DNA of 41,507 nucleotides from an uncultured Pelagibacteraceae bacterium (GTDB lineage Bacteria; Pseudomonadota; Alphaproteobacteria; Pelagibacterales; Pelagibacteraceae), in NCBI GenBank assembly GCA_902560245.1, contig CACELK010000012.1:1-41507 (forward strand). The letters run 5' to 3'. The number at the start of each line of letters is the position of its first letter. The first letter of the stretch is position 1. The position numbers were made by a program, and so were the translations under genes. This document shows, piece by piece, positions 31,380 through 41,507 of the stretch. The notes under the pieces are model-generated. The model did no database searches. It saw nothing but the letters and a program-made list of their open reading frames with translations, and had not been told where the DNA came from.

Positions 31380-31811
31380 ATGTTTTTAAAATTATTAGAC
31401 AAAATTGGAAGAAAAAAAACAGTTTTAGATAGAGGTCCTTCACATCCAAATTTTAATCAAGCAAAACCATGGATGAATAGATATTACGTTCTATTTAGGA
31501 ACAGACCTAAATGGTTCCCTTTTAATATAATAATTCATGAAATGCTTGATGATGATCATGGAGAAGGTGTTCATAATCATCTATGTCCTTTTATTACAAT
31601 AATTTTAAAAGATGGATACTGGGAAACGTTAAAATCTGGAAAATTTTGGAGGTCTCCAGGCTATATTGGATTCAGATCAGCTAACGATTATCATAGAGTT
31701 GATCTTAAACCTGGTACAAGACCAATGACACTATTTATTCCAGGACCTTTTGGTTTAAGAAAAGGACCAAGATCCGAATACGGTATAGATTTTAAAACTA
31801 AAATTAAATAA
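31380..31811 (+). CDS. Cupin-like conserved hypothetical protein
   Basis: A 143-residue protein with no signal peptide. Histidines spaced as in a cupin metal site are present: HEMLDDDHGEGVHNH (about 58-72) and a later YHRVDL near 105, with short beta strands (FITIILKDGYWETL, TLFIPGPF) between. A metal-binding beta-barrel is the most likely fold. The function is unknown; a dioxygenase, isomerase or ligand-binding role would all fit. It follows bamB by two bases and overlaps the convergent 147-residue gene by eight bases. Confidence 0.6.
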   Translation: MFLKLLDKIGRKKTVLDRGPSHPNFNQAKPWMNRYYVLFRNRPKWFPFNIIIHEMLDDDHGEGVHNHLCPFITIILKDGYWETLKSGKFWRSPGYIGFRSANDYHRVDLKPGTRPMTLFIPGPFGLRKGPRSEYGIDFKTKIK

Positions 31812-32249: not shown

Positions 32250-33386
32250 TTAAATTTGATTTATTCCTTCAGAAAGTAATTTGTTATAAAGATTTTCATC
32301 TGCATTCCCTTCGCAACCTATTAATAAAATATTTGAATTTATGTTAATATCTAATTTTTCTTTAATATCATTATTTTTACAACTTGCGATTAAACTTATA
32401 ATTCCTGGAGCCGAGCATTCACCCCCAACAATTTTTTTATTTGCAAATTTACTATTTGCTAGCATTGCAATTGTTTTAGCAATTTGATCGTCAGAAATAC
32501 TCAAACAAAAGTCTACAGAATTTTTTAGAATTTTCCATGGCACCAATGATACTTCTCCACAAGACATTCCTCCCATTATACTTTCTTTTTTAATATTTAT
32601 TTTTTTTATCGATCCATTTTTAATACTTTGCAAAACACAATCAGCAGTTTCTGGCTCTACTATAATAATTTTTGGGATTCTTTTAAAATAATTTGCAATT
32701 CCGGCTACAGATCCAGCAGCCATACCACCAACTCCTGCTTGAAGAAATACATGAGTTATATATTGATCTGTTTGAGTTGTAATTTCTTTAATCATTACAG
32801 AATAACCTGCCATAGTTAATTTTGGAACTAATTCATAATCTTTCCATGCTACGTCCTGAACAATTTGCCATCCATTTTTTTTAGATTGATCTAAACATTC
32901 AATTAAAGAAGCTTCGTAGTTTCCTTTTACTCTTATCACATCAGCTCCTAATTTTTTCATTTCATTTGCTCTATATTCACTTACAAACTCACTTATAAAT
33001 ATTTTACATTTTAAACCTAATCTTTGTGACCCCCATGCTACTGATCTACCATGATTTCCCGCTGTAGCAGTTGCAATAGTAATATTTTTTTTTCCATTAG
33101 AAATTTTTTCAACTGCGTAAGCTCCACCTAATGCTTTAAAAGATTTAAGCCCAAATCTTTTTGACTCATCTTTATAAAATATATTATTTAAATTAAGTTC
33201 TTTTGATAATTTATTCAAAGAAATTAATGGAGTAGCTTCGTAGGATGGCCATTCTGAAATTTTATTATATGCTTCATCAATAAAATTTTTTGATAAAGTT
33301 TCCAATATTTGATCTCTACTAAAATTGTAATTTTTATTTGCTAAATATTTAGTGATTTTCCAATCAAGATAATTAGATTTACTCAT
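32250..33386 (-). CDS. PLP-dependent ammonia-lyase (diaminopropionate ammonia-lyase / threonine dehydratase-like)
   Basis: A 378-residue fold-type II PLP enzyme that eliminates ammonia from an amino acid. The PLP lysine is Lys84 in RFGLKSFKALGGAYAV, which is the pattern of diaminopropionate ammonia-lyase. TAGNHGRSVAWGSQRLG near 112, QAGVGGMAAG near 220 (phosphate loop) and GGECSAPG near 328 are as expected. Related enzymes include threonine dehydratase and 3-hydroxyaspartate ammonia-lyase, so the substrate is uncertain. ATG 33386 (MSKSNYL) is preferred to a TTG three codons upstream. It lies two bases after the GS-III-like gene. Confidence 0.82.
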   Translation of the reverse strand: MSKSNYLDWKITKYLANKNYNFSRDQILETLSKNFIDEAYNKISEWPSYEATPLISLNKLSKELNLNNIFYKDESKRFGLKSFKALGGAYAVEKISNGKKNITIATATAGNHGRSVAWGSQRLGLKCKIFISEFVSEYRANEMKKLGADVIRVKGNYEASLIECLDQSKKNGWQIVQDVAWKDYELVPKLTMAGYSVMIKEITTQTDQYITHVFLQAGVGGMAAGSVAGIANYFKRIPKIIIVEPETADCVLQSIKNGSIKKINIKKESIMGGMSCGEVSLVPWKILKNSVDFCLSISDDQIAKTIAMLANSKFANKKIVGGECSAPGIISLIASCKNNDIKEKLDININSNILLIGCEGNADENLYNKLLSEGINQI

Positions 33387-33388
33387 TT

Positions 33389-34711
33389 CTAACAATCTAA
33401 GGTGTTTTTTCTTTCCCAGTCTGTAATAGAGTCATTTTTATTGAAATTTTCTTCTCTGTTAAATTCATCAATTTCAATCTTTTTTAGTTTTATGTAACTG
33501 TTTATCACATCATCTCCAAATGATTCCTTTAATTCTTTAGAATCTTCTAATTCTCTTATTGAGTCTTCAATTTCATCGGGCAATTTTTTTAAATGCGAAT
33601 AATTTTTATAGTCTGTATACATGTTGCACGTTAAAGGTTCTCCTGGGTCAGTTCTATTATTAAGACCATCGAGACCACCGGCAATTACCCCAGCTTGTAA
33701 AAGGTAAGGGTTTGATGATCCATCCATTAATCTTAATTCAAATCTGCCCGGGTCAGGTATTCTTATCATATGTGTTCTATTATTTCCTGAGTAAGAAATA
33801 CTACTTGGCGACCATGAGGCCCCAGATTTAGTTGGAGGAGCGTTAATTCTTCTATAGCTGTTAATAGTTGGATTAAAAAACGCAGAGAGGGCTTGCGCAT
33901 TTTTCATTATTCCCCCTAAAAAATTGTATGCAACTTTGCTTAATCCAAATCTGTCTCCAGTTTCTAAAAACTTGTTTTGTTTATCTTTCCATAATGATAC
34001 ATGGGCATGACATCCATTACCTGTTAAATTTTCAAAGGGCTTAGGCATAAAGGTTGCTCTTAATTCGTGCTTTTCAGCTAATGATTTGACCATAAATTTA
34101 AAAAACACATGTCTATCTGCAGTAGTTAGACAATCAGAGTAATCCCAATTCATTTCAAATTGGCCATTAGCGTCTTCATGATCATTTTGATAAGGATTCC
34201 AGCCTAGTTCAATCATGCTATCACAAATTTCTTTGATTAAATCATACCTTCTCATTAACGCTGACTGATCATAGCATGGTTTTGATTGTATATCTCTATC
34301 ATCTGCAATTTTTGAACCATCTGGTGAAATCAAAAAATATTCACACTCTACTCCAGATTTCATTATTAAATCTTTTTTTGATAGTTTTTCTATTTGGTTT
34401 TTTAACATTACCCGTGGTGATGCTTTTACTGGCTTGTTATCCATCCATAAATCAGATGCTAACCAACCCACTTCTTTATTCCAAGGTATTTGAATTAAAC
34501 TATTTGGATCTGGTATTGCAAACATATCTGTATCAGCCGGTGTCATGTCTAACCAAGTAGCAAAACCAGCAAATCCAGCTCCGTTTTTTTGCATTTCACC
34601 TATTGCCTGAGCAGGTACCAATTTTGATCTTAACACACCAAATAAATCTACAAAGCTTATAAGAAAATATTTAATTTTTTTTGATTTCGCTAAAGACAAA
34701 AGATTTTTCAT
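33389..34711 (-). CDS. glnT: Glutamine synthetase III-like ligase (GlnT family)
   Basis: A 440-residue ATP-dependent ligase of the type annotated as type III glutamate-ammonia ligase in alphaproteobacteria. Marks are GAGFAGFATWLDMTPADTD near 44, a metal-binding ECEYFLI near 123, NDHEDANGQFEMNW near 177, FMPKPFENLTGNGCHAHVSLW near 222-242 and NSYRRI near 293, with the late RFELRLMDGSSNPYLL. Members make glutamine or gamma-glutamyl amides such as gamma-glutamylmethylamide, so the amine substrate is open. It is a different paralog from the ligase at the right edge. With the PLP lyase and 147-residue protein it forms a tight operon. Confidence 0.87.
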   Translation of the reverse strand: MKNLLSLAKSKKIKYFLISFVDLFGVLRSKLVPAQAIGEMQKNGAGFAGFATWLDMTPADTDMFAIPDPNSLIQIPWNKEVGWLASDLWMDNKPVKASPRVMLKNQIEKLSKKDLIMKSGVECEYFLISPDGSKIADDRDIQSKPCYDQSALMRRYDLIKEICDSMIELGWNPYQNDHEDANGQFEMNWDYSDCLTTADRHVFFKFMVKSLAEKHELRATFMPKPFENLTGNGCHAHVSLWKDKQNKFLETGDRFGLSKVAYNFLGGIMKNAQALSAFFNPTINSYRRINAPPTKSGASWSPSSISYSGNNRTHMIRIPDPGRFELRLMDGSSNPYLLQAGVIAGGLDGLNNRTDPGEPLTCNMYTDYKNYSHLKKLPDEIEDSIRELEDSKELKESFGDDVINSYIKLKKIEIDEFNREENFNKNDSITDWERKNTLDC

Positions 34712-34733
34712 TATAAATTAATCTAGCATATAT

Positions 34734-34886
34734 TTATTTAAAAATTCGAATAATTGTTTCCCAGTAAAATATAACATTTACAATAATAATTATTATAACT
34801 GCCAAAATTACTCCATATTTGGATTTTGGCCAAGCCAATCTAGCCATTTTACTTGGTGTTTTGTTTAAATTTTTATTTTCTTCCAT
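34734..34886 (-). CDS. 50-residue single-span membrane protein
   Basis: A short frame from ATG 34884-34886 to TAA 34734-34736. The peptide has a basic N-terminus (MEENKNLNKTPSKMARLAWP), a strongly hydrophobic helix at about 25-41 (GVILAVIIIIIVNVIFYW) and a short basic tail ending IRIFK. It lies between the hairpin terminator and the GS-III-like gene (22-base gap), so it is likely the first gene of that transcript. No family recognised. Confidence 0.55.
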   Translation of the reverse strand: MEENKNLNKTPSKMARLAWPKSKYGVILAVIIIIIVNVIFYWETIIRIFK

Positions 34887-34941: not shown

Positions 34942-34968
34942 TGAGGGCGCAAAATTTATGCGCCCTCA
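34942..34968 (-). terminator. Hairpin terminator downstream of amtB and the 73-residue gene
   Basis: A 10-bp perfect stem: TGAGGGCGCA on the plus strand at 34942-34951 and its complement at 34959-34968, with a 7-base loop. In an AT-rich window this GC-rich stem stands out. On the minus strand it is followed by TTAAGTTTTATAAAAAATTT, a loose T-rich tract. It lies 14 bases after the stop of the 73-residue gene, dividing the Amt/Glx unit from the GS/lyase unit. Confidence 0.8.
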
Positions 34969-34981
34969 AATAAGAAATCAA

Positions 34982-35203
34982 TTACCAATCGGTAATATTG
35001 CTTTTGTGGTCGTTTGCACTATGTCTTTTTCTAGCTAATTTTTCTAGCTTTTCGGACTCTTGCATATTAGCTAAAACATGCCAGCCAATCCAAATAACTA
35101 TTCCAATTATTACTAGAAGAGTTTCTGTGCCAACTCCGGGATAAACTGCACCTGCAACTTCTTTAGCACTTAGATGATCTATCCAGTTAGTTACTGTTGC
35201 CAT
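34982..35203 (-). CDS. 73-residue single-span membrane protein linked to AmtB
   Basis: A small protein with a short N-terminal part, one hydrophobic helix at about 26-45 (ETLLVIIGIVIWIGWHVLA) and a charged C-terminal tail rich in Lys, Arg and Glu (SEKLEKLARKRHSANDHKS). No family recognised. It starts 12 bases after amtB with an AAAGGAG ribosome site overlapping the amtB stop, so it is translated together with the channel and may be an accessory subunit or regulator of it; that function is inference from position. Confidence 0.75.
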   Translation of the reverse strand: MATVTNWIDHLSAKEVAGAVYPGVGTETLLVIIGIVIWIGWHVLANMQESEKLEKLARKRHSANDHKSNITDW

Positions 35204-35210
35204 AATTTAT

Positions 35211-35215
35211 CTCCT
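35211..35215 (-). promoter_or_regulatory. Ribosome binding site of the 73-residue gene, adjoining the amtB stop
   Basis: AGGAG (within AAAGGAG) on the minus strand sits seven bases before the start and touches the amtB stop codon at 35216-35218. It supports the start and indicates coupled translation with amtB. Confidence 0.65.
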
Positions 35216-36616
35216 TTATCTGGTTGATGAGGAAACTGCTTTTTCATCATTTTTTGCAGCCTCCAACATGTTATAGTCTAGACCTGCTATTTCTACTTCT
35301 CTAGGAATTCTTAATTTACCCATTCCATGAAGAATTTTAGCGATAATCCAACCTGGTAAGAAACCAAGTAGTCCAAACATTATTAGTGCACCAATGAACA
35401 TTCCTAGTGGATTGATAGCTGCGTAATTTGATCCATCCCACATAGCTCCAACACTGTAACCAGACGATGGATAACCATTTAGAACAAATCCACAGATTAC
35501 TAAACCTACAAATCCAGCATAACCATGTACCGCTACAGCACCAACCGCATCATCAATTTTGAACTTACGTTCAACCCAATAATGAAGTTTGTATGCAATA
35601 ACAACACCGATCATACCAATGATCATAGATTGTATCGGATGATATAAGTCGTTACCTGCAGACGCACATATAATTCCCGCTAGACCACTTGAGTATGTCC
35701 AGAAAGGGTCACCCTTGGCGACGATATATCCAGCTAATAAACCACCTGATAAAGACATCAAGAAGTTCATAGTAATACCACTAAGTGTAGTAGGGGTTAC
35801 ATATATGTTTGTTGCGGTCCAGTAAGTTACACCTTCCATGCCGTACTCAGGTCCGAGATTGAATATTGGTATATTGCATGCAGCATAAAATCCCCAGAAC
35901 CCAGTATAAATTAAAAACAATCCAACTGTAACTAGCCAAGGATTTCTTGGTCCAATATTTCTTGGTTCACCACTTGATGAAAATTTACCAATTCTTGGTC
36001 CTAAAACTGCTAAGATACCTAGGGCAAATCCACCCGCAATCGCGTGAATTACTCCCGATGCATAAGCATCGTGATATCCTAATAATTTTAACATCCATCC
36101 ATCAAAGTGCCATCCCCATGCAGCATCAATTGTCCAGAATACTGATCCAATTGCTATTGCTAAAATTCCAAAAGCAAAGGTAGTAATTCTCTCAATCACT
36201 GCACCGGAAACTATTGATGCGGCGGTCCAAGAAAATAGTAGGAACGCAGCCCAGAATACCCCAGAGATATGATCTCCTAAATTAATAGCCATTAATTGAC
36301 TATTAGGTTGGTACCATTTTGCACTAAAGGTTGACTCGTCTGTTATTAGTGCAGCACTTTCATTCATAATTGAAGGTGCAAGACCAGGTCCTGTTGGGAA
36401 CGCCCAGTAAATCCACCATCCAAAGAAAAACCAAGTTACTGTTACCAATGGTATAAGCATTGTGTTTTTCATCAGGGTGTGTTGGTGATGTTTATAACGT
36501 GATGCGCCTACTTCATACATACAGAATCCTACGTGTATTAAAAACATAAGTACTACAGTTATCCAGTAGTAAAATTCTGTAAATATGGTTGTAAGAGCGC
36601 TTAATTGATCAGTCAT
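35216..36616 (-). CDS. amtB: AmtB-like ammonium/methylammonium channel
   Basis: A 466-residue Amt/Mep/Rh channel. The pore twin histidines are His191 (GVIHAIAGG) and His364 (VAVHGYAG); SGAVIERI near 137 and GLAGIICASAGNDL near 311 are family marks. It is longer than the roughly 400-430 residues of typical AmtB, and the first helices differ from the usual form: the N-terminus reads VVLMFLIHVGFCMYEVGASR, with more loop sequence around 70-110. It may therefore be a distinct subfamily. Lying after the GlxBCD-like genes, it could take up methylamine as well as ammonium. No glnK gene is next to it. Confidence 0.9.
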   Translation of the reverse strand: MTDQLSALTTIFTEFYYWITVVLMFLIHVGFCMYEVGASRYKHHQHTLMKNTMLIPLVTVTWFFFGWWIYWAFPTGPGLAPSIMNESAALITDESTFSAKWYQPNSQLMAINLGDHISGVFWAAFLLFSWTAASIVSGAVIERITTFAFGILAIAIGSVFWTIDAAWGWHFDGWMLKLLGYHDAYASGVIHAIAGGFALGILAVLGPRIGKFSSSGEPRNIGPRNPWLVTVGLFLIYTGFWGFYAACNIPIFNLGPEYGMEGVTYWTATNIYVTPTTLSGITMNFLMSLSGGLLAGYIVAKGDPFWTYSSGLAGIICASAGNDLYHPIQSMIIGMIGVVIAYKLHYWVERKFKIDDAVGAVAVHGYAGFVGLVICGFVLNGYPSSGYSVGAMWDGSNYAAINPLGMFIGALIMFGLLGFLPGWIIAKILHGMGKLRIPREVEIAGLDYNMLEAAKNDEKAVSSSTR

Positions 36617-36622
36617 AATCTT

Positions 36623-36627
36623 CCTCC
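36623..36627 (-). promoter_or_regulatory. Strong ribosome binding site of amtB
   Basis: GGAGG on the minus strand (inside GGGAGGAA), six bases before the amtB ATG. It fits high expression of the channel and confirms the start. Confidence 0.7.
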
Positions 36628-36694
36628 CATATTTATTTCAGAAACCTTATGAGAATTTCTTAGATGTGACAAATCAAACAATATCAAAAAACCT

Positions 36695-36700
36695 ATTATA
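36695..36700 (-). promoter_or_regulatory. Possible amtB promoter -10 box
   Basis: A perfect TATAAT on the minus strand in the 160-base gap upstream of amtB (36617-36776), preceded by TTGATA at a spacing of 21 bases, which is too long for an ideal sigma-70 promoter. It would give a leader of about 70 bases. I see nothing else that I can name in this gap. Confidence 0.35.
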
Positions 36701-36776
36701 GACGCACATTTTAAAAAAAATTATCAACTTTAGATTGTGCTATAAAAGATTTAGAATTTTAATTTTTGAAGAGATT

Positions 36777-37178
36777 CTAAAATTTTAGATATGCTTTTTT
36801 AAGATCTACCAAAGGATGATTTGGAGACATCTGAAATTTAACAAGAAGCTCTCTAGCAATCATATCTCTATCTTGTTGGTTATCAGGCAATTTTATTTTT
36901 TTTGGTATTGTTACCCAGCCATTAGCATTTCTATCGAAGACAGCAGGTCTATCTTCTTCATAGCCCATGTGTACATCTTCTAACCAGTTTAAATCATCCC
37001 ATCCCATATGTTCTATATATTTTTTTAGAAAAGGAGTTAATCTTTTATAGTCTGGCAATAAATTAACGTCATATCTATAGCCAATAGTTTGACCAATCAT
37101 TTTTTCACGTGCTGTCTCTTTCTTTTTTCCTAGTTGGCCTTTAATTTCTTTTTTTTTGTTTTTCTTTTTTTTTGCCAT
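36777..37178 (-). CDS. Lysine-tailed hypothetical protein between the GlxD-like gene and amtB
   Basis: A 133-residue protein that I do not recognise. It begins with a highly basic tail (MAKKKKNKKKEIKGQLGKKK) and then a compact, acidic/aromatic domain with GWDDLNWLEDVHMGYEEDRP near 79-85 and later, and NANGWVTIPKKIKLP. No signal or membrane segment. It follows the GlxD-like gene by six bases, so it is in the operon of the split glutamate synthase. It could be an accessory subunit; nothing in the sequence gives a reaction. Confidence 0.7.
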   Translation of the reverse strand: MAKKKKNKKKEIKGQLGKKKETAREKMIGQTIGYRYDVNLLPDYKRLTPFLKKYIEHMGWDDLNWLEDVHMGYEEDRPAVFDRNANGWVTIPKKIKLPDNQQDRDMIARELLVKFQMSPNHPLVDLKKAYLKF

Positions 37179-37184
37179 AGTTAT

Positions 37185-38585
37185 TTAGATTTTATGAAAA
37201 TCATCTACTCCAACGGTATGATTAGTTCCTGACAATGGAACTTTTGCCAGTGCTGATGCTTCCATCGTTAGTGCAGCCATATCTTCCGGCTCTAAAGAGT
37301 GAATATTTGTTTTTCCACAAGCCCTTGCTAATAATTGTGCTTCTAAAGTCATTGTATGTAAGTAATTGTAAACTCTTAATGCAGCATCATCAGGATTTAA
37401 TCTTTTTCTAAGTTTTGGATCTTGTGTAGCAACGCCTACTGGACATCTACCAGTATGGCAATGATAACAATGTCCGGCTGGAACTCCCATTTCTTTTTCA
37501 AAATTAGATTCAGGTATCTCTTTATTACAGTTTAGGGCAATCATTGCGCCGGTTCCGATTGCAATAGCATCTGCGCCTAAAGCTAAAGCTTTTGCCATAT
37601 CAGCACCATCTCTTACACCGCCAGCATAAATAAGTGTAACTTTTCCAGTTTTGCCGACATCATCAATTGCTCTTCTTGCTTCTCTTATAGCAGCTATTCC
37701 AGGTATACCAGTGTTTGCTGCAGCAATGTGTGGTCCTGCACCAGTTGATCCTTCCATACCATCAAGATAAATCGAGTCAGGATCACATTTAGCAGCCATA
37801 CGAACATCATCATAAACTTTTGCTGCTCCAAGTTTTAATTGAATTGGAACTTTATTTTTTGTTAATTCTCTAAGCTCTTGAACTTTTAAAGCTAAATCGT
37901 CCGGTCCTAACCAATCAGGATGTCTAGCAGGAGATCTTTGGTCAATACCAGCGGGTAAAGATCTCATTTCTGCTACTTGGTCAGTAACTTTTTGACCCAT
38001 TAAGTGGCCACCCATACCAACCTTTTGTCCTTGTCCAATGAATACTTCTATTCCATCTGCAAGTTGTGCATGATGAGGATTAAAACCGTATCTCGATTGA
38101 ATACATTGGTAATACCATTTTTCTGAATATCTTCTTTCGTCTGGTATCATTCCACCTTCTCCAGAACATGTAGCTGATCCAGCCATTGTTGCACCTCTTG
38201 CTAAAGCTGTTTTAGCTTCATAAGAAAGAGCACCAAAACTCATTCCAGTAATATAAACAGGTATATCTAATTCAATAGGATTTTCACATCTAGGTCCTAT
38301 TACTGTTTTTGTTTCACATTTTTCTCTATAACCTTCAATTACAAATCTTGTCAAAGTACCAGGTAAAAAAACCAAATCATCAAAAGTAGGAATTTTTTTC
38401 ATTAATGCCATTCCACGCATTCGGTATCTTCCTAATTGTGCTTTAATATGAATATCGTCTATCACTTCAGGTGTAAAAATTGCATTATACCCTAATAAAC
38501 TTTTATTTCTCTTTGCAAATTCACTCTTACCATTCGAGTGACCATTGCCTTTACCGTTACTTTTACCGTTCTTTTTTTTTGCCAT
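37185..38585 (-). CDS. glxD: FMN-binding glutamate-synthase-like subunit (GlxD / MgsC type)
   Basis: The FMN barrel of a split glutamate synthase. In N-methylglutamate synthase the homologous subunit transfers the amine onto 2-oxoglutarate or glutamate. The 466 residues include YITGMSFGALSYEAKTA near 111, KLGAAK near 251, YLDGMEGSTGAGP near 273, AGGVRDGADMAKALALGADA near 321 (FMN phosphate site) and the iron-sulfur cysteines Cys373, Cys376 and Cys381 in CYHCHTGRCPVG. The first 20 residues are a low-complexity Lys/Gly/Asn/Ser tail unlike the rest. Its start overlaps the GlxC stop (TAATG). Confidence 0.88.
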   Translation of the reverse strand: MAKKKNGKSNGKGNGHSNGKSEFAKRNKSLLGYNAIFTPEVIDDIHIKAQLGRYRMRGMALMKKIPTFDDLVFLPGTLTRFVIEGYREKCETKTVIGPRCENPIELDIPVYITGMSFGALSYEAKTALARGATMAGSATCSGEGGMIPDERRYSEKWYYQCIQSRYGFNPHHAQLADGIEVFIGQGQKVGMGGHLMGQKVTDQVAEMRSLPAGIDQRSPARHPDWLGPDDLALKVQELRELTKNKVPIQLKLGAAKVYDDVRMAAKCDPDSIYLDGMEGSTGAGPHIAAANTGIPGIAAIREARRAIDDVGKTGKVTLIYAGGVRDGADMAKALALGADAIAIGTGAMIALNCNKEIPESNFEKEMGVPAGHCYHCHTGRCPVGVATQDPKLRKRLNPDDAALRVYNYLHTMTLEAQLLARACGKTNIHSLEPEDMAALTMEASALAKVPLSGTNHTVGVDDFHKI

Positions 38586-39439
38586 TATATAGCTCCTTTT
38601 TTTTCTGTTGGTTCTAAAGCGTCATAATTCCACAGTTTTTTACCTGCAACAATTTTTGTCATTTTAGAAACATCAAAATTATTACCTATCTCCGCAACTT
38701 TAAGTTTTCTATTTAACCATTCTATATCATTTTTTGTCATGGGGGCTTCTACCGCATCACTTCCAAATGATCCAATTTTCCCTCCAACATATATTGTTCC
38801 GTCATACATAGAGTCTCCTAGGTTAATACCAACATCGCCTAATATAACTATTCTTCCTCTTTGCATCATAAAACCAGTAAATGCACCAGCATCACCTCCG
38901 ACGATTATAGAGCCTCCTTTTTGATCAATTCCAGTTCTTGCCCCAACACTTCCTTTGCAAATCAAATCTCCACCTCTTATAGCAGCTCCAAAACATGAGC
39001 CTGCATTTTTTTCTATTACTACTTTACCCGCCATCATATTTTCGGCACAAGACCAGCCAACACGGCCGTTTATTCTAACTATTGGCCCATCAATTGATCC
39101 AACTCCAAAATATCCTAAACTTCCTTCAAAAATTAAATTAAGTTTATTTAGTATTCCAACTCCTAAACTATGTTTACCTTGTGGATTTTTAATAACTATG
39201 GTTCCGTAACCTTCGCTCATTAAACGATCAATCTTTTCATTAGCTTGTTTGCAATCCATGTCTTTAACATCCAACTCAGTTCTTTTATTAAAATCGACGT
39301 CATGGGTTCCCCAATAAAAGAAATTCTCTGCTTCATCTGGGTTAAAAAATTTTTGTTGTGTTTTCCCAGTGAGAACTTCACTATGTAAACCCATTGATTG
39401 AGCTTTTGTTTTTTTTGTATCTGTTTTTAGATTTGCCAT
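38585..39439 (-). CDS. glxC: GXGXG-domain glutamate-synthase-like subunit (GlxC / MgsB type)
   Basis: The C-terminal beta-helix domain of a glutamate synthase encoded as its own 284-residue protein. Repeated Gly-rich turns of the GXGXG fold are visible from about 107 to 225 (EGSLGYFGVGSIDG, CKGSVGARTGIDQKGGS, GGDAGAFTGFMMQRG, GDVGINLGDSMYDGTIYVGG). It has no catalytic residue of its own and probably holds the amidotransferase and FMN subunits together. It overlaps glxB by 13 bases and glxD by one. Confidence 0.87.
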   Translation of the reverse strand: MANLKTDTKKTKAQSMGLHSEVLTGKTQQKFFNPDEAENFFYWGTHDVDFNKRTELDVKDMDCKQANEKIDRLMSEGYGTIVIKNPQGKHSLGVGILNKLNLIFEGSLGYFGVGSIDGPIVRINGRVGWSCAENMMAGKVVIEKNAGSCFGAAIRGGDLICKGSVGARTGIDQKGGSIIVGGDAGAFTGFMMQRGRIVILGDVGINLGDSMYDGTIYVGGKIGSFGSDAVEAPMTKNDIEWLNRKLKVAEIGNNFDVSKMTKIVAGKKLWNYDALEPTEKKGAI

Positions 39440-40368
39440 ACTTTTACTTCTCCATCAAATGGGTCGTAAGTATCTATTTCTTGCGGAAGAATAGATCTTA
39501 TAGCTATTTCCTCAGAACCCATCGCAACCAATTCATCAGATTCATATAATACTAATGGTTTTGCAGCCATAGTATCTTTTGCCATTCCTAATGAATCTTT
39601 TGTTGCAACAAAATATGTAAAAACACCATCAAGTCCTGTTAGAGATTCTTTCATTCCTTCTTCTAAAGTTGCACCGTTTCTCATTTTTTCTGCAAGAAAA
39701 ACTGCAATCAACTCAGAATCACATTCAGACATAAATCTCATACCTTTATTTTCAAGAACTCTTCTGTTATTCCAATAATTCGTCAATTGACCGTTATGGA
39801 CTACAGATACATCAGCAAAAGGGTAGCCCCAGAAAGGGTGGGCTGATTTAATATCTACACCTGACTCTGTTGCCATTCTTGCATGTCCAATACCATGTGT
39901 GCCTTGCACTTTGTTTAAACCATATCTTTCAGATACAGCTGTTGCATCTCCTAAGTCTTTTATTAGTTCAAGGGATTTTCCAATTGAAAGTATTTCAACA
40001 CTTTCTATACTTTCAAGAGCTTTTGAAAATTCCATTAAATCTTTATCATATTTCATTTCATATCTGTAAGAATATGGGGTCAGTCTATCTTCTTTAACAA
40101 TTGTTGCACCTAATTCAGAAAGTTTTTTATCTACAAGTTTTTTTCTTTCATCGTAAACACTTTCATCTTCATTTACCGAAGTACTTCCTTCACCCACATT
40201 TTCTCCGACTTTAAATCTTAAGATAAAGTTTTGGCCATCATTATTGGCATAAAGGGCATATCCAGTTGAGTCTGGACCTCTATGTTTTAAGGCCTGAAGC
40301 ATATTTTGAAGTTCTTCACCAACGTTTGATGATTTACCTCTATGAATTAGTCCAGCTATTCCACACAT
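39427..40368 (-). CDS. glxB: Class II glutamine-amidotransferase-like subunit (GlxB / MgsA type)
   Basis: The amidotransferase domain of the split glutamate synthase: it releases ammonia or, in N-methylglutamate synthase, methylamine from a gamma-glutamyl amide. ATG 40366-40368 is chosen because the Ntn-hydrolase catalytic Cys must be residue 2 (MCGIAGLIHRG); a frame open 24 codons further upstream is not used. The 313 residues include HRGPDSTGYALY near 34, GIGHARMATES near 161, HPFWGYPF and VHNGQLTNYWNNR near 190, and the SECDSELIAVFL motif. An AAGG site lies eight bases upstream. Confidence 0.9.
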   Translation of the reverse strand: MCGIAGLIHRGKSSNVGEELQNMLQALKHRGPDSTGYALYANNDGQNFILRFKVGENVGEGSTSVNEDESVYDERKKLVDKKLSELGATIVKEDRLTPYSYRYEMKYDKDLMEFSKALESIESVEILSIGKSLELIKDLGDATAVSERYGLNKVQGTHGIGHARMATESGVDIKSAHPFWGYPFADVSVVHNGQLTNYWNNRRVLENKGMRFMSECDSELIAVFLAEKMRNGATLEEGMKESLTGLDGVFTYFVATKDSLGMAKDTMAAKPLVLYESDELVAMGSEEIAIRSILPQEIDTYDPFDGEVKVWQI

Positions 40369-40390
40369 ATTTTTTTCCTTCTTAAATTTA

Positions 40391-41507
40391 TTAAGGCAAA
40401 CAATCCAAGTATGTATCAAGATCCCATTGCGTAGTCGCACCTAAGAATTTTTCCCACTCATCATTTTTATACCAGTGAAAAACTTTATACATTTCATCAG
40501 GCATTGCCGATTTAATAACTTCATCTTCCGCCAATCTATCTAAGGCTTCACCTAAGCTTAGCGGAAGTTTTTTTACATCTTTACCAGCTTTTTTAGCTTC
40601 ATACATACTTCTAGACTCTGGCTTAGATGGTTTTAGATTTTTTGAAATACCATGGTCACAAGCTTTCAATAAAGCTGCACCTAGTAAATAAGGATTATGC
40701 ATTGAATCAACTGATCTATATTCAAATCTTCCTGGAGCAGATACTCTTAATCCACAAGTTCTATTTTGATATCCCCAATCAGCATAAACTGGAGCCCAGA
40801 ATCCTTGATCCCAAAGCCTTCTGTAAGAATTAACAGTTGAAGATCCTAAAGCAGTCAAAGCAGGCAAGTGTTCCATTATTCCTGCAATGGATTGTAAACC
40901 AATTTTACCAGGTAATTGCATATCTTTAGTGTCAGGCATAAATGTATTTGTACCACCTTGCACATAACCAAATACTTCCTCTACTCCTGGTAATTGTTTA
41001 TGACCCAATTTGTTTGTTACAACTTTTCCACCTTTCCATAAAGACATGTTAGTATGGCAACCACTTGCAGATACACCCATAAAAGGTTTTGTCATAAAGC
41101 ATGCTATTAAATTGTGTTCTCTAGCTACTTGCGCACAAATTTGTCTATAAGTAGAAAGTCTGTCAGCGTTTCTTAAAACATTATCAAATGTCCAGTTCAA
41201 CTCTAACTGTCCTGGAGCATCTTCATGGTCACCTTGTATCATATCTAAACCCATGGCTGACGCGTACTCAATTACCTTCATAAATACAGGTCTTAATGAT
41301 TCAAATTGATCAATGTGATAACAATAGGGTTTAGAGAAACCTGAGCCTGTGGGACTTCCATCAGGATTTTTTGTCAGCCACATCATTTCAGGTTCAGTAC
41401 CAACTCTCAATTCTAAACCATGTTTTTTCTGAAATTCATCCATAAATATTCTTAGGTTTCCTCGACAATCAGATGTTAAATGTCCTCCTGGATTTTCTCT
41501 TTCTTCT
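40391..41507 (-). CDS. Glutamine-synthetase-family ligase (GmaS / GlnT-like), N-terminus cut by window edge
   Basis: An ATP-dependent glutamate-amine ligase. The frame is open to the window edge (an ATG at 41443 is internal), so about 371 residues are visible and the N-terminus is missing. Marks are GTEPEMMWL (metal Glu), GDHEDAPGQLELNW, FMTKPFMGVSASGCHTNMSLW and NSYRRLWDQGFWAPVYADWG, then GRFEYRSVDSMHNPYLLGAA. It directly precedes glxBCD, as gmaS precedes mgsABC in methylamine users, so gamma-glutamylmethylamide synthetase is the leading reading and plain glutamine synthetase III the alternative. Confidence 0.83.
   Translation of the reverse strand, partial: EERENPGGHLTSDCRGNLRIFMDEFQKKHGLELRVGTEPEMMWLTKNPDGSPTGSGFSKPYCYHIDQFESLRPVFMKVIEYASAMGLDMIQGDHEDAPGQLELNWTFDNVLRNADRLSTYRQICAQVAREHNLIACFMTKPFMGVSASGCHTNMSLWKGGKVVTNKLGHKQLPGVEEVFGYVQGGTNTFMPDTKDMQLPGKIGLQSIAGIMEHLPALTALGSSTVNSYRRLWDQGFWAPVYADWGYQNRTCGLRVSAPGRFEYRSVDSMHNPYLLGAALLKACDHGISKNLKPSKPESRSMYEAKKAGKDVKKLPLSLGEALDRLAEDEVIKSAMPDEMYKVFHWYKNDEWEKFLGATTQWDLDTYLDCLP

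Follow-up and report, generated by a model that had tools for sequence, protein, structure and literature searches.

Gene Content and Organization of the Locus

The window, the whole stretch of 41,507 nucleotides that was analyzed, comes from a Pelagibacteraceae (SAR11) source genome of 1.06 Mb that is 84% complete. A search of named genomes for the lyase gave 297 relatives, and the loci of the best 80 all belong to Pelagibacteraceae, Pelagibacterales, or Pelagibacter, in agreement with SAR11. On the minus strand, and in the order of transcription, it carries genes for a second GmaS-like ligase, for MgsA-, MgsB-, and MgsC-like proteins, for P133, for an Amt-family transporter, and for the small protein TM73, then a hairpin, and then the genes for TM50, GmaS, a lyase, and P147.

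Four ORFs follow the hairpin. TM50 (34734..34886, minus strand) is the first of them and encodes a 50-amino acid protein with one hydrophobic stretch; a PHROGs search with this protein returned no match, and its homologues in relatives precede either gmaS or short mgsABC genes. The second (33389..34711, minus strand) encodes a GS-type ligase, the gamma-glutamylmethylamide synthetase GmaS, and the third (32250..33386, minus strand) a PLP lyase that derives from diaminopropionate ammonia-lyase. The lyase ORF was listed as 32250-33395, although translation probably starts from the ATG at 33386, located 2 nt past the stop codon of the ligase. The last ORF, P147 (31804..32247, minus strand), begins 2 nt past the stop codon of the lyase and encodes a protein of 147 amino acids that alternates with DNA photolyase in relatives. 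All four ORFs on the minus strand were confirmed, so that the four-gene set described in an earlier note on this DNA is real; the span of 32250-34886 given there covers TM50, the ligase, and the lyase, but P147 falls outside of it. On the plus strand, a 143-amino acid cysteine dioxygenase-like protein (31380-31811; phrog_4786, E 8e-21) is convergent with P147, with an 8-base overlap at its end.

The terminator-like hairpin between TM73 and TM50 (34942..34968) has a 10-bp stem running from 34968 to 34942 on the minus strand. Its RNA fold was calculated at -24.3 kcal/mol (z -6.1), and none of 200 shuffled sequences was equally stable. We scanned 80 loci. A perfect GC-containing stem past TM73, usually with a GGGCGC core, was present in 52 of the 80 as a raw count without shuffle control, and a run of T follows the stem in several of these 52. 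Under the strict rule that the stem be perfect, the other 28 loci had no stem past TM73. The T-tract of the hairpin in the window is itself poor (TTAAGTTTTA), and a scan with a terminator pattern found three occurrences versus 2.5 expected by chance. The stability of the fold and the recurrence of the stem support the terminator that had been placed upstream of this transcript from the sequence alone, poor T-tract notwithstanding.

The region upstream of the hairpin (34982-41507, minus strand) holds a second methylamine-type cluster, consisting of a GmaS-like ligase, MgsABC-like proteins, P133, and a divergent Amt. The ligase gene (40391..41507, minus strand) is truncated by the end of the window; a full-length relative of 489 amino acids in locus L040 keeps 18 of the 21 GmaS residues discussed below. 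The MgsA-like class II amidotransferase (39427..40440, minus strand) was listed with a GTG start, and relatives of 313-314 amino acids suggest a start near 40368. It is followed by an MgsB-like protein of the long type (38585..39439, minus strand), recognized by its position and its relatives, and by an MgsC-like protein, also of the long type (37185..38585, minus strand), which has a match to the glutamate synthase FMN domain. P133 (36777..37178, minus strand) has no assigned function and no match to Pfam or NCBIfam above the cut-off; in the fetched relatives it is more than 90% identical. The Amt-family transporter (35216..36616, minus strand) is divergent, scoring 177 bits against the TIGR00836 cut-off of 343.3, and corresponds by position to SAR11_1310 (amt). 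TM73 (34982..35203, minus strand) lies downstream of this Amt-type gene and directly upstream of the hairpin. Relatives carry a sarcosine-oxidase-like FAD enzyme upstream of the second cluster, and this cluster could, judging from its gene content, serve as a separate amine route. In some relatives short mgsABC genes are located between TM50 and gmaS (L042 5720-8645, L044 8556-12808). The window, in contrast to these gmaS loci, has no short mgsABC in the slot before gmaS, and the long MgsC was the only MgsC found in its 84% complete genome; no short type was found there.

Assignment of the Ligase

In an NCBIfam profile search, the ligase scored above the TIGR03105 cut-off. Its top match in the PDB, with 573 bits, was 7cql, the GmaS of Rhodovulum sp. 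12E13. In the window ligase, all 21 ligand-binding and catalytic residues that have been described for the Rhodovulum GmaS are identical, and the catalytic residues Asp177, Glu186, and Arg312 are also identical in all 35 SAR11 rows of the alignment (identical sequences counted repeatedly). Ala48 and Trp300 in the window ligase occupy the positions of the GS Asp (Asp50') and the flap Glu; the roles of the residues in GmaS and the replacement of the GS Asp and Glu by Ala48 and Trp300 are described in the relevant passages of PMC7948447.

SAR11_1316 of strain HTCC1062, annotated as glnT, has been published as a putative GmaS together with glxBCD (SAR11_1313-1315), and an N-methylglutamate route for methylamine has been proposed for SAR11 (passages in PMC3160333). 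In locus L042 of genome G011, whose coordinates are those of HTCC1062, P133 and Amt are separated by a gap at 1245732-1245856, which is the SAR11_1309/1310 gap listed in PMC2704228. We deduced from gene order that the window ligase corresponds to SAR11_1316 and that the lyase is the next gene, SAR11_1317. The ligase is GmaS, a protein already known for SAR11, with a putative activity. That the ligase is of a kind forming gamma-glutamyl amides had been anticipated in the earlier note, and the TIGR03105 and 7cql matches and the residues bear this out; the same note matched the genes to no known pathway, but the ligase fits the GmaS of the N-methylglutamate methylamine route as it appears in those passages of PMC3160333.

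P147 and DNA Photolyase Occupy the Same Positions

Among the lyase loci with a downstream gene, the slot past the lyase contained a photolyase in 64 and P147 in 29, and nothing else (93 of 93). The lyase tree on which these labels were mapped was reduced from 96 to 89 loci by dropping four identical rows and three loci lacking a downstream neighbor; the labels change seven times, and at least four of these changes are forced by supported branches. Across 147 genomes of the order, P147 was detected in 15, a photolyase orthologue (E <= 1e-60) in 112, and both in none (Fisher p 2.7e-11, kinship ignored). The genome set and the named contigs partly overlap (for example, L125 and G017 C1), and the 96 loci and the 147 genomes are therefore not independent.

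A second shared position was found in genus g5, where P147 is located between secA and infA (L192, L193). The photolyase lies at this same place in the seven relatives that were fetched (L200-L206) out of the eight that have a photolyase; in L203, four extra ORFs separate it from infA. The hisD gene is near all seven photolyase loci and is missing there in both P147 loci; the exchange may thus have involved further genes. In G090 and G093, P147 is found at other places, and the photolyase is likewise absent. Outside SAR11, a photolyase domain was present in one of five P147 genomes (G720) and in 14 of 20 genomes free of P147; these counts point in the same direction and are too few to weigh.

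The DNA photolyase (FAD_binding_7, PF03441) thus takes the same chromosomal places as P147 in SAR11, to their mutual exclusion, although the two proteins have no domain in common and differ in length (about 473 versus 147 amino acids). An exchange that recurs at two unrelated places is the trace expected of a functional replacement, gene for gene; it is not proof of one. On this evidence of position, P147 is a candidate replacement of the photolyase. In a superficial survey of the photolyase literature with SAR11 and Pelagibacter, this slot exchange was not found in print.

At least one weak photolyase-like match was recorded in 10 of the 15 P147 genomes, which are therefore not devoid of the superfamily. 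The window genome encodes two further photolyase-like ORFs of about 410 and 503 amino acids, close together (G000 C4:2206-4168), and similar pairs occur in G064, G131, G122, G129, and G022. Four genomes of genus g1 (G064, G131, G122, G129) lack P147 as well as any full photolyase match, which suggests that the role is dispensable in some. In two SAR11 genomes with P147 and the usual photolyase both missing, a different photolyase-domain protein of 488 amino acids was seen (G022 C5:73163, G135 C2:121913); this protein may represent a third solution for the same role.

The slot might instead be a site of easy exchange, or P147 might travel with other local changes, and P147 would then be unrelated to repair. 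The sporadic occurrence of P147 in the order, the concurrent difference in hisD in g5, and the single photolyase among the five P147 genomes outside SAR11 all fit this explanation, which we consider a serious possibility that falls short of probable. Counting against it, just two genes ever fill the slot in 93 loci, the exclusion holds genome-wide and beyond the slot, a second slot exists in g5, and G090 and G093 carry P147 elsewhere with no photolyase.

Distribution and Conservation of P147

Searches with P147 against Pfam (E 0.1), NCBIfam, PHROGs, and PADLOC gave no match within the limits set, and a photolyase domain in particular was not found with Pfam at E 0.1. A comparison with PDB profiles gave one chain at E 0.085, which is meaningless; the AlphaFold2 model was poor (pLDDT 62), and a fold search with it was without a match. 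T4 endonuclease V is similar in size to P147. A dimer glycosylase of this type was considered for P147, and the protein did not match the corresponding Pfam model at E 0.1.

Nine diverse copies of P147 share 31 invariant positions, and the invariant residues comprise six Trp (W71, W76, W85, W88, W109, W141) as well as R96, R97, D102, R108, R114, and H115. Relatives of the protein were found on 50 plasmid records (35 from Sinorhizobium, 13 from Rhizobium, and one each from Phaeobacter and Mesorhizobium) and in 15 phage records. Of 298 other genomes in a phylum sample, 5 had a relative, and a scan of viral contigs added one more. On two rhizobial plasmids, P147 is preceded by genes for fasciclin, DUF378, and TspO. 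It adjoins thymidylate synthase in one phage and ribonucleotide reductase in another, where a dUTPase is also close, and in two further phages the neighbors are hypothetical or uninformative. Participation of P147 in nitrogen metabolism was rejected because the protein occurs in so few genomes of the order and elsewhere stands beside other genes. We offer, as a speculation that is somewhat doubtful in its full form, that P147 may be an undescribed small UV-damage repair protein of SAR11, rhizobia, and large phages, one that has repeatedly displaced the photolyase gene for gene at the same places.

The Lyase and the Loss of Asp120

The lyase passed the NF006058 model (score 399.6, cut-off 276) and remained below the cut-offs of TIGR03528 (278.6 versus 532.25) and TIGR01747 (253.8 versus 274). 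Its best score against the NCBIfam models for threonine/serine dehydratases was 101.8 bits versus a cut-off of 411.3. In a fold search with the predicted structure (pLDDT 80.9), E. coli YgeX (EC 4.3.1.15, PDB 4d9i) came first of 1851 matches at E <= 10, with a TM score of 0.87. NF006058 and the YgeX fold agree with the diaminopropionate-lyase-like character noticed earlier from the sequence.

In the alignment, the lyase keeps Lys77 and Asp189 of YgeX, and the PLP lysine is Lys84 in the window. The two enzymes are 32% identical, and the SAR11 lyase differs from YgeX in that Thr190 is replaced by Val, Leu289 by Met, and Ser339 by Cys (25/26), and in that the position of Asp120 is occupied by Ala (Ala109) in all 26 distinct SAR11 sequences. 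Among the matches listed, 26 of 27 loci from Alphaproteobacteria other than SAR11 have Asp at this position; the remaining one has Ser. A motif search over the 96 lyase-holding loci found ATAGNHG 96 times and no variant form. Lys77 and Asp120 of diaminopropionate ammonia-lyase are named as potential catalytic residues in a passage of PMC4000059. The 26 SAR11 lyases form a single clade with 100/100 support on a stem of 1.38 changes per column. L069 was left out of this tree for length, and the program warned that long branches may account for the join between SAR11 and row L048.

Orthologues of the lyase were present in 70 of the 147 genomes, every one of them within genus g1 (70 of 76 genomes); in four of the 70 (G132, G133, G013, G130), the match is interrupted by one or two stop codons. 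Many genomes of family f2 have a PLP protein that is 33-38% identical to the lyase; the copy in L091 contains ASAGNHG and is of a different type. Canonical diaminopropionate ammonia-lyases adjoin amidohydrolase, peptidase, carbamoyltransferase, or hydantoinase-type genes, whereas the SAR11 lyase is without such neighbors. Hydantoinase as its usual neighbor was ruled out; the neighbor is the photolyase. Searches of the literature on Pelagibacter and diaminopropionate, and on the tag SAR11_1317, retrieved nothing on the lyase. By its family, fold, and alignment, the lyase is a Pelagibacter-specific offshoot of diaminopropionate ammonia-lyase that has lost the second catalytic base, and since Asp120 is replaced by Ala in all 26 SAR11 sequences, its substrate has probably been narrowed or changed.

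One form that this change could have taken is a turn to a serine- or threonine-type dehydratase, which would supply pyruvate or oxobutyrate and ammonia. The 'SAGNH' type motif is a dehydratase motif. The Ala at the place of Asp120 resembles it, the L091 protein with ASAGNHG shows this motif in SAR11 in an unrelated family, and the Fe-S serine dehydratase (PF03313) was absent in 16 of 16 SAR11 genomes searched, with a positive control in 9 of 14 named genomes. We nevertheless consider this conversion unlikely, given the dehydratase scores far below their cut-offs and the retention of Asp189 of the diaminopropionate family. To the enzyme remaining a diaminopropionate ammonia-lyase restricted to one enantiomer we assign the same low likelihood: it passes NF006058, has YgeX as its best fold match, and retains the Lys and Asp189, but the potential catalytic Asp120 is gone, the TIGR03528 and TIGR01747 cut-offs are missed, and the gene neighbors differ from those of the canonical enzymes.

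Linkage between the Lyase and GmaS

GmaS was detected in 65 of the 76 g1 genomes, and 61 had both the lyase and GmaS. The two genes are adjacent in 59 of these 61, where roughly -7 to 34 nt separate them. Nine of the 70 lyase genomes have no GmaS, and these fall at no fewer than four places on the lyase tree; the long MgsC is also missing in eight of the nine, and the other (G107) has it elsewhere. GmaS without the lyase was recorded in four genomes. In G022, GmaS ends 76 bases from the contig end, in G135 it is located at base 83 of the contig, and in G129 the match is partial (a contig end is assumed); G125 is a true lyase-less case that carries the photolyase and the short mgs genes along with GmaS. 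The GmaS of G110 is split into two overlapping pieces and contains a stop, and that of G121 is partial. Beyond g1, G090 and 43 of the 53 genomes in family f2 carry GmaS (counted at E < 1e-180) but have no lyase orthologue.

The tight link of the lyase to GmaS could mean a shared function. The link of the lyase to its other neighbor, photolyase or P147, is equally tight, being found in every locus with a downstream gene at a median gap of 4 nt (medians were taken from 51 photolyase and 24 P147 gaps). As the lyase is packed equally tightly on both sides, adjacency cannot carry the claim of a pathway, and a single four-gene pathway was rejected on these grounds. Of the joint nitrogen route that the earlier note had drawn from these genes, the linkage of lyase and GmaS stands; the route itself is opposed by the nine lyase genomes without GmaS and by the equal link to P147 or photolyase. 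Co-occurrence, proposed there as a check, likewise holds for the lyase and GmaS, but not for P147, which is present in few genomes and tracks the photolyase slot. The contrary outcome, an ordinary threonine dehydratase and an ordinary glutamine synthetase in no conserved linkage, is opposed by the family scores and by the linkage. We regard it as improbable that the lyase feeds GmaS. In this reading, its substrate would be an N-methylated diaminopropionate, for example BMAA (beta-N-methylamino-alanine), from which the lyase would eliminate methylamine and also release pyruvate and ammonia, and the Ala at Asp120 would make room for the methyl group. The adjacency, the invariant Ala, and the release of methylamine and ammonia from BMAA by PLP alone (in a passage of PMC9414260) would agree with this, but GmaS is missing in part of the lyase genomes, the Ala motif also fits serine/threonine dehydratases, and a literature search found no BMAA data on the lyase family.

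Three Proposed Functions Side by Side

The explanation that we favor, with a modest degree of confidence, is that the locus combines three functions side by side in a tightly packed genome: GmaS, a one-base lyase, and P147 in the role of a photolyase. GmaS, as its family, residues, and neighbors indicate, would join methylamine and glutamate using ATP, and its product would enter the N-methylglutamate route via the MgsABC-like proteins. The lyase, from its fold, its PLP-binding lysine, and the chemistry of its family, is most likely a one-base PLP beta-eliminase. Lys84 would abstract the alpha-proton from a single enantiomer of an alanine bearing a beta-amino or beta-hydroxy group; after the departure of this group, the resulting aminoacrylate would decay to pyruvate and ammonia. 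The benefit of the lyase would probably be a supply of nitrogen and pyruvate that is not tied to GmaS. P147 would have no pathway in common with either enzyme and most likely takes over the repair of UV or light damage.

GmaS is known, the lyase variant is unusual, and P147 as a replacement of photolyase is, from its genomic placement, a strong and testable lead. SAR11 cells belong to the most abundant in the sunlit ocean, an environment that provides methylamine as a nitrogen source and exposes cells to constant UV damage. The lyase is an enzyme found across a genus with a catalytic base lost. If true, the replacement of photolyase by the small P147 at the same chromosomal place would reveal a new way in which surface bacteria repair light damage.
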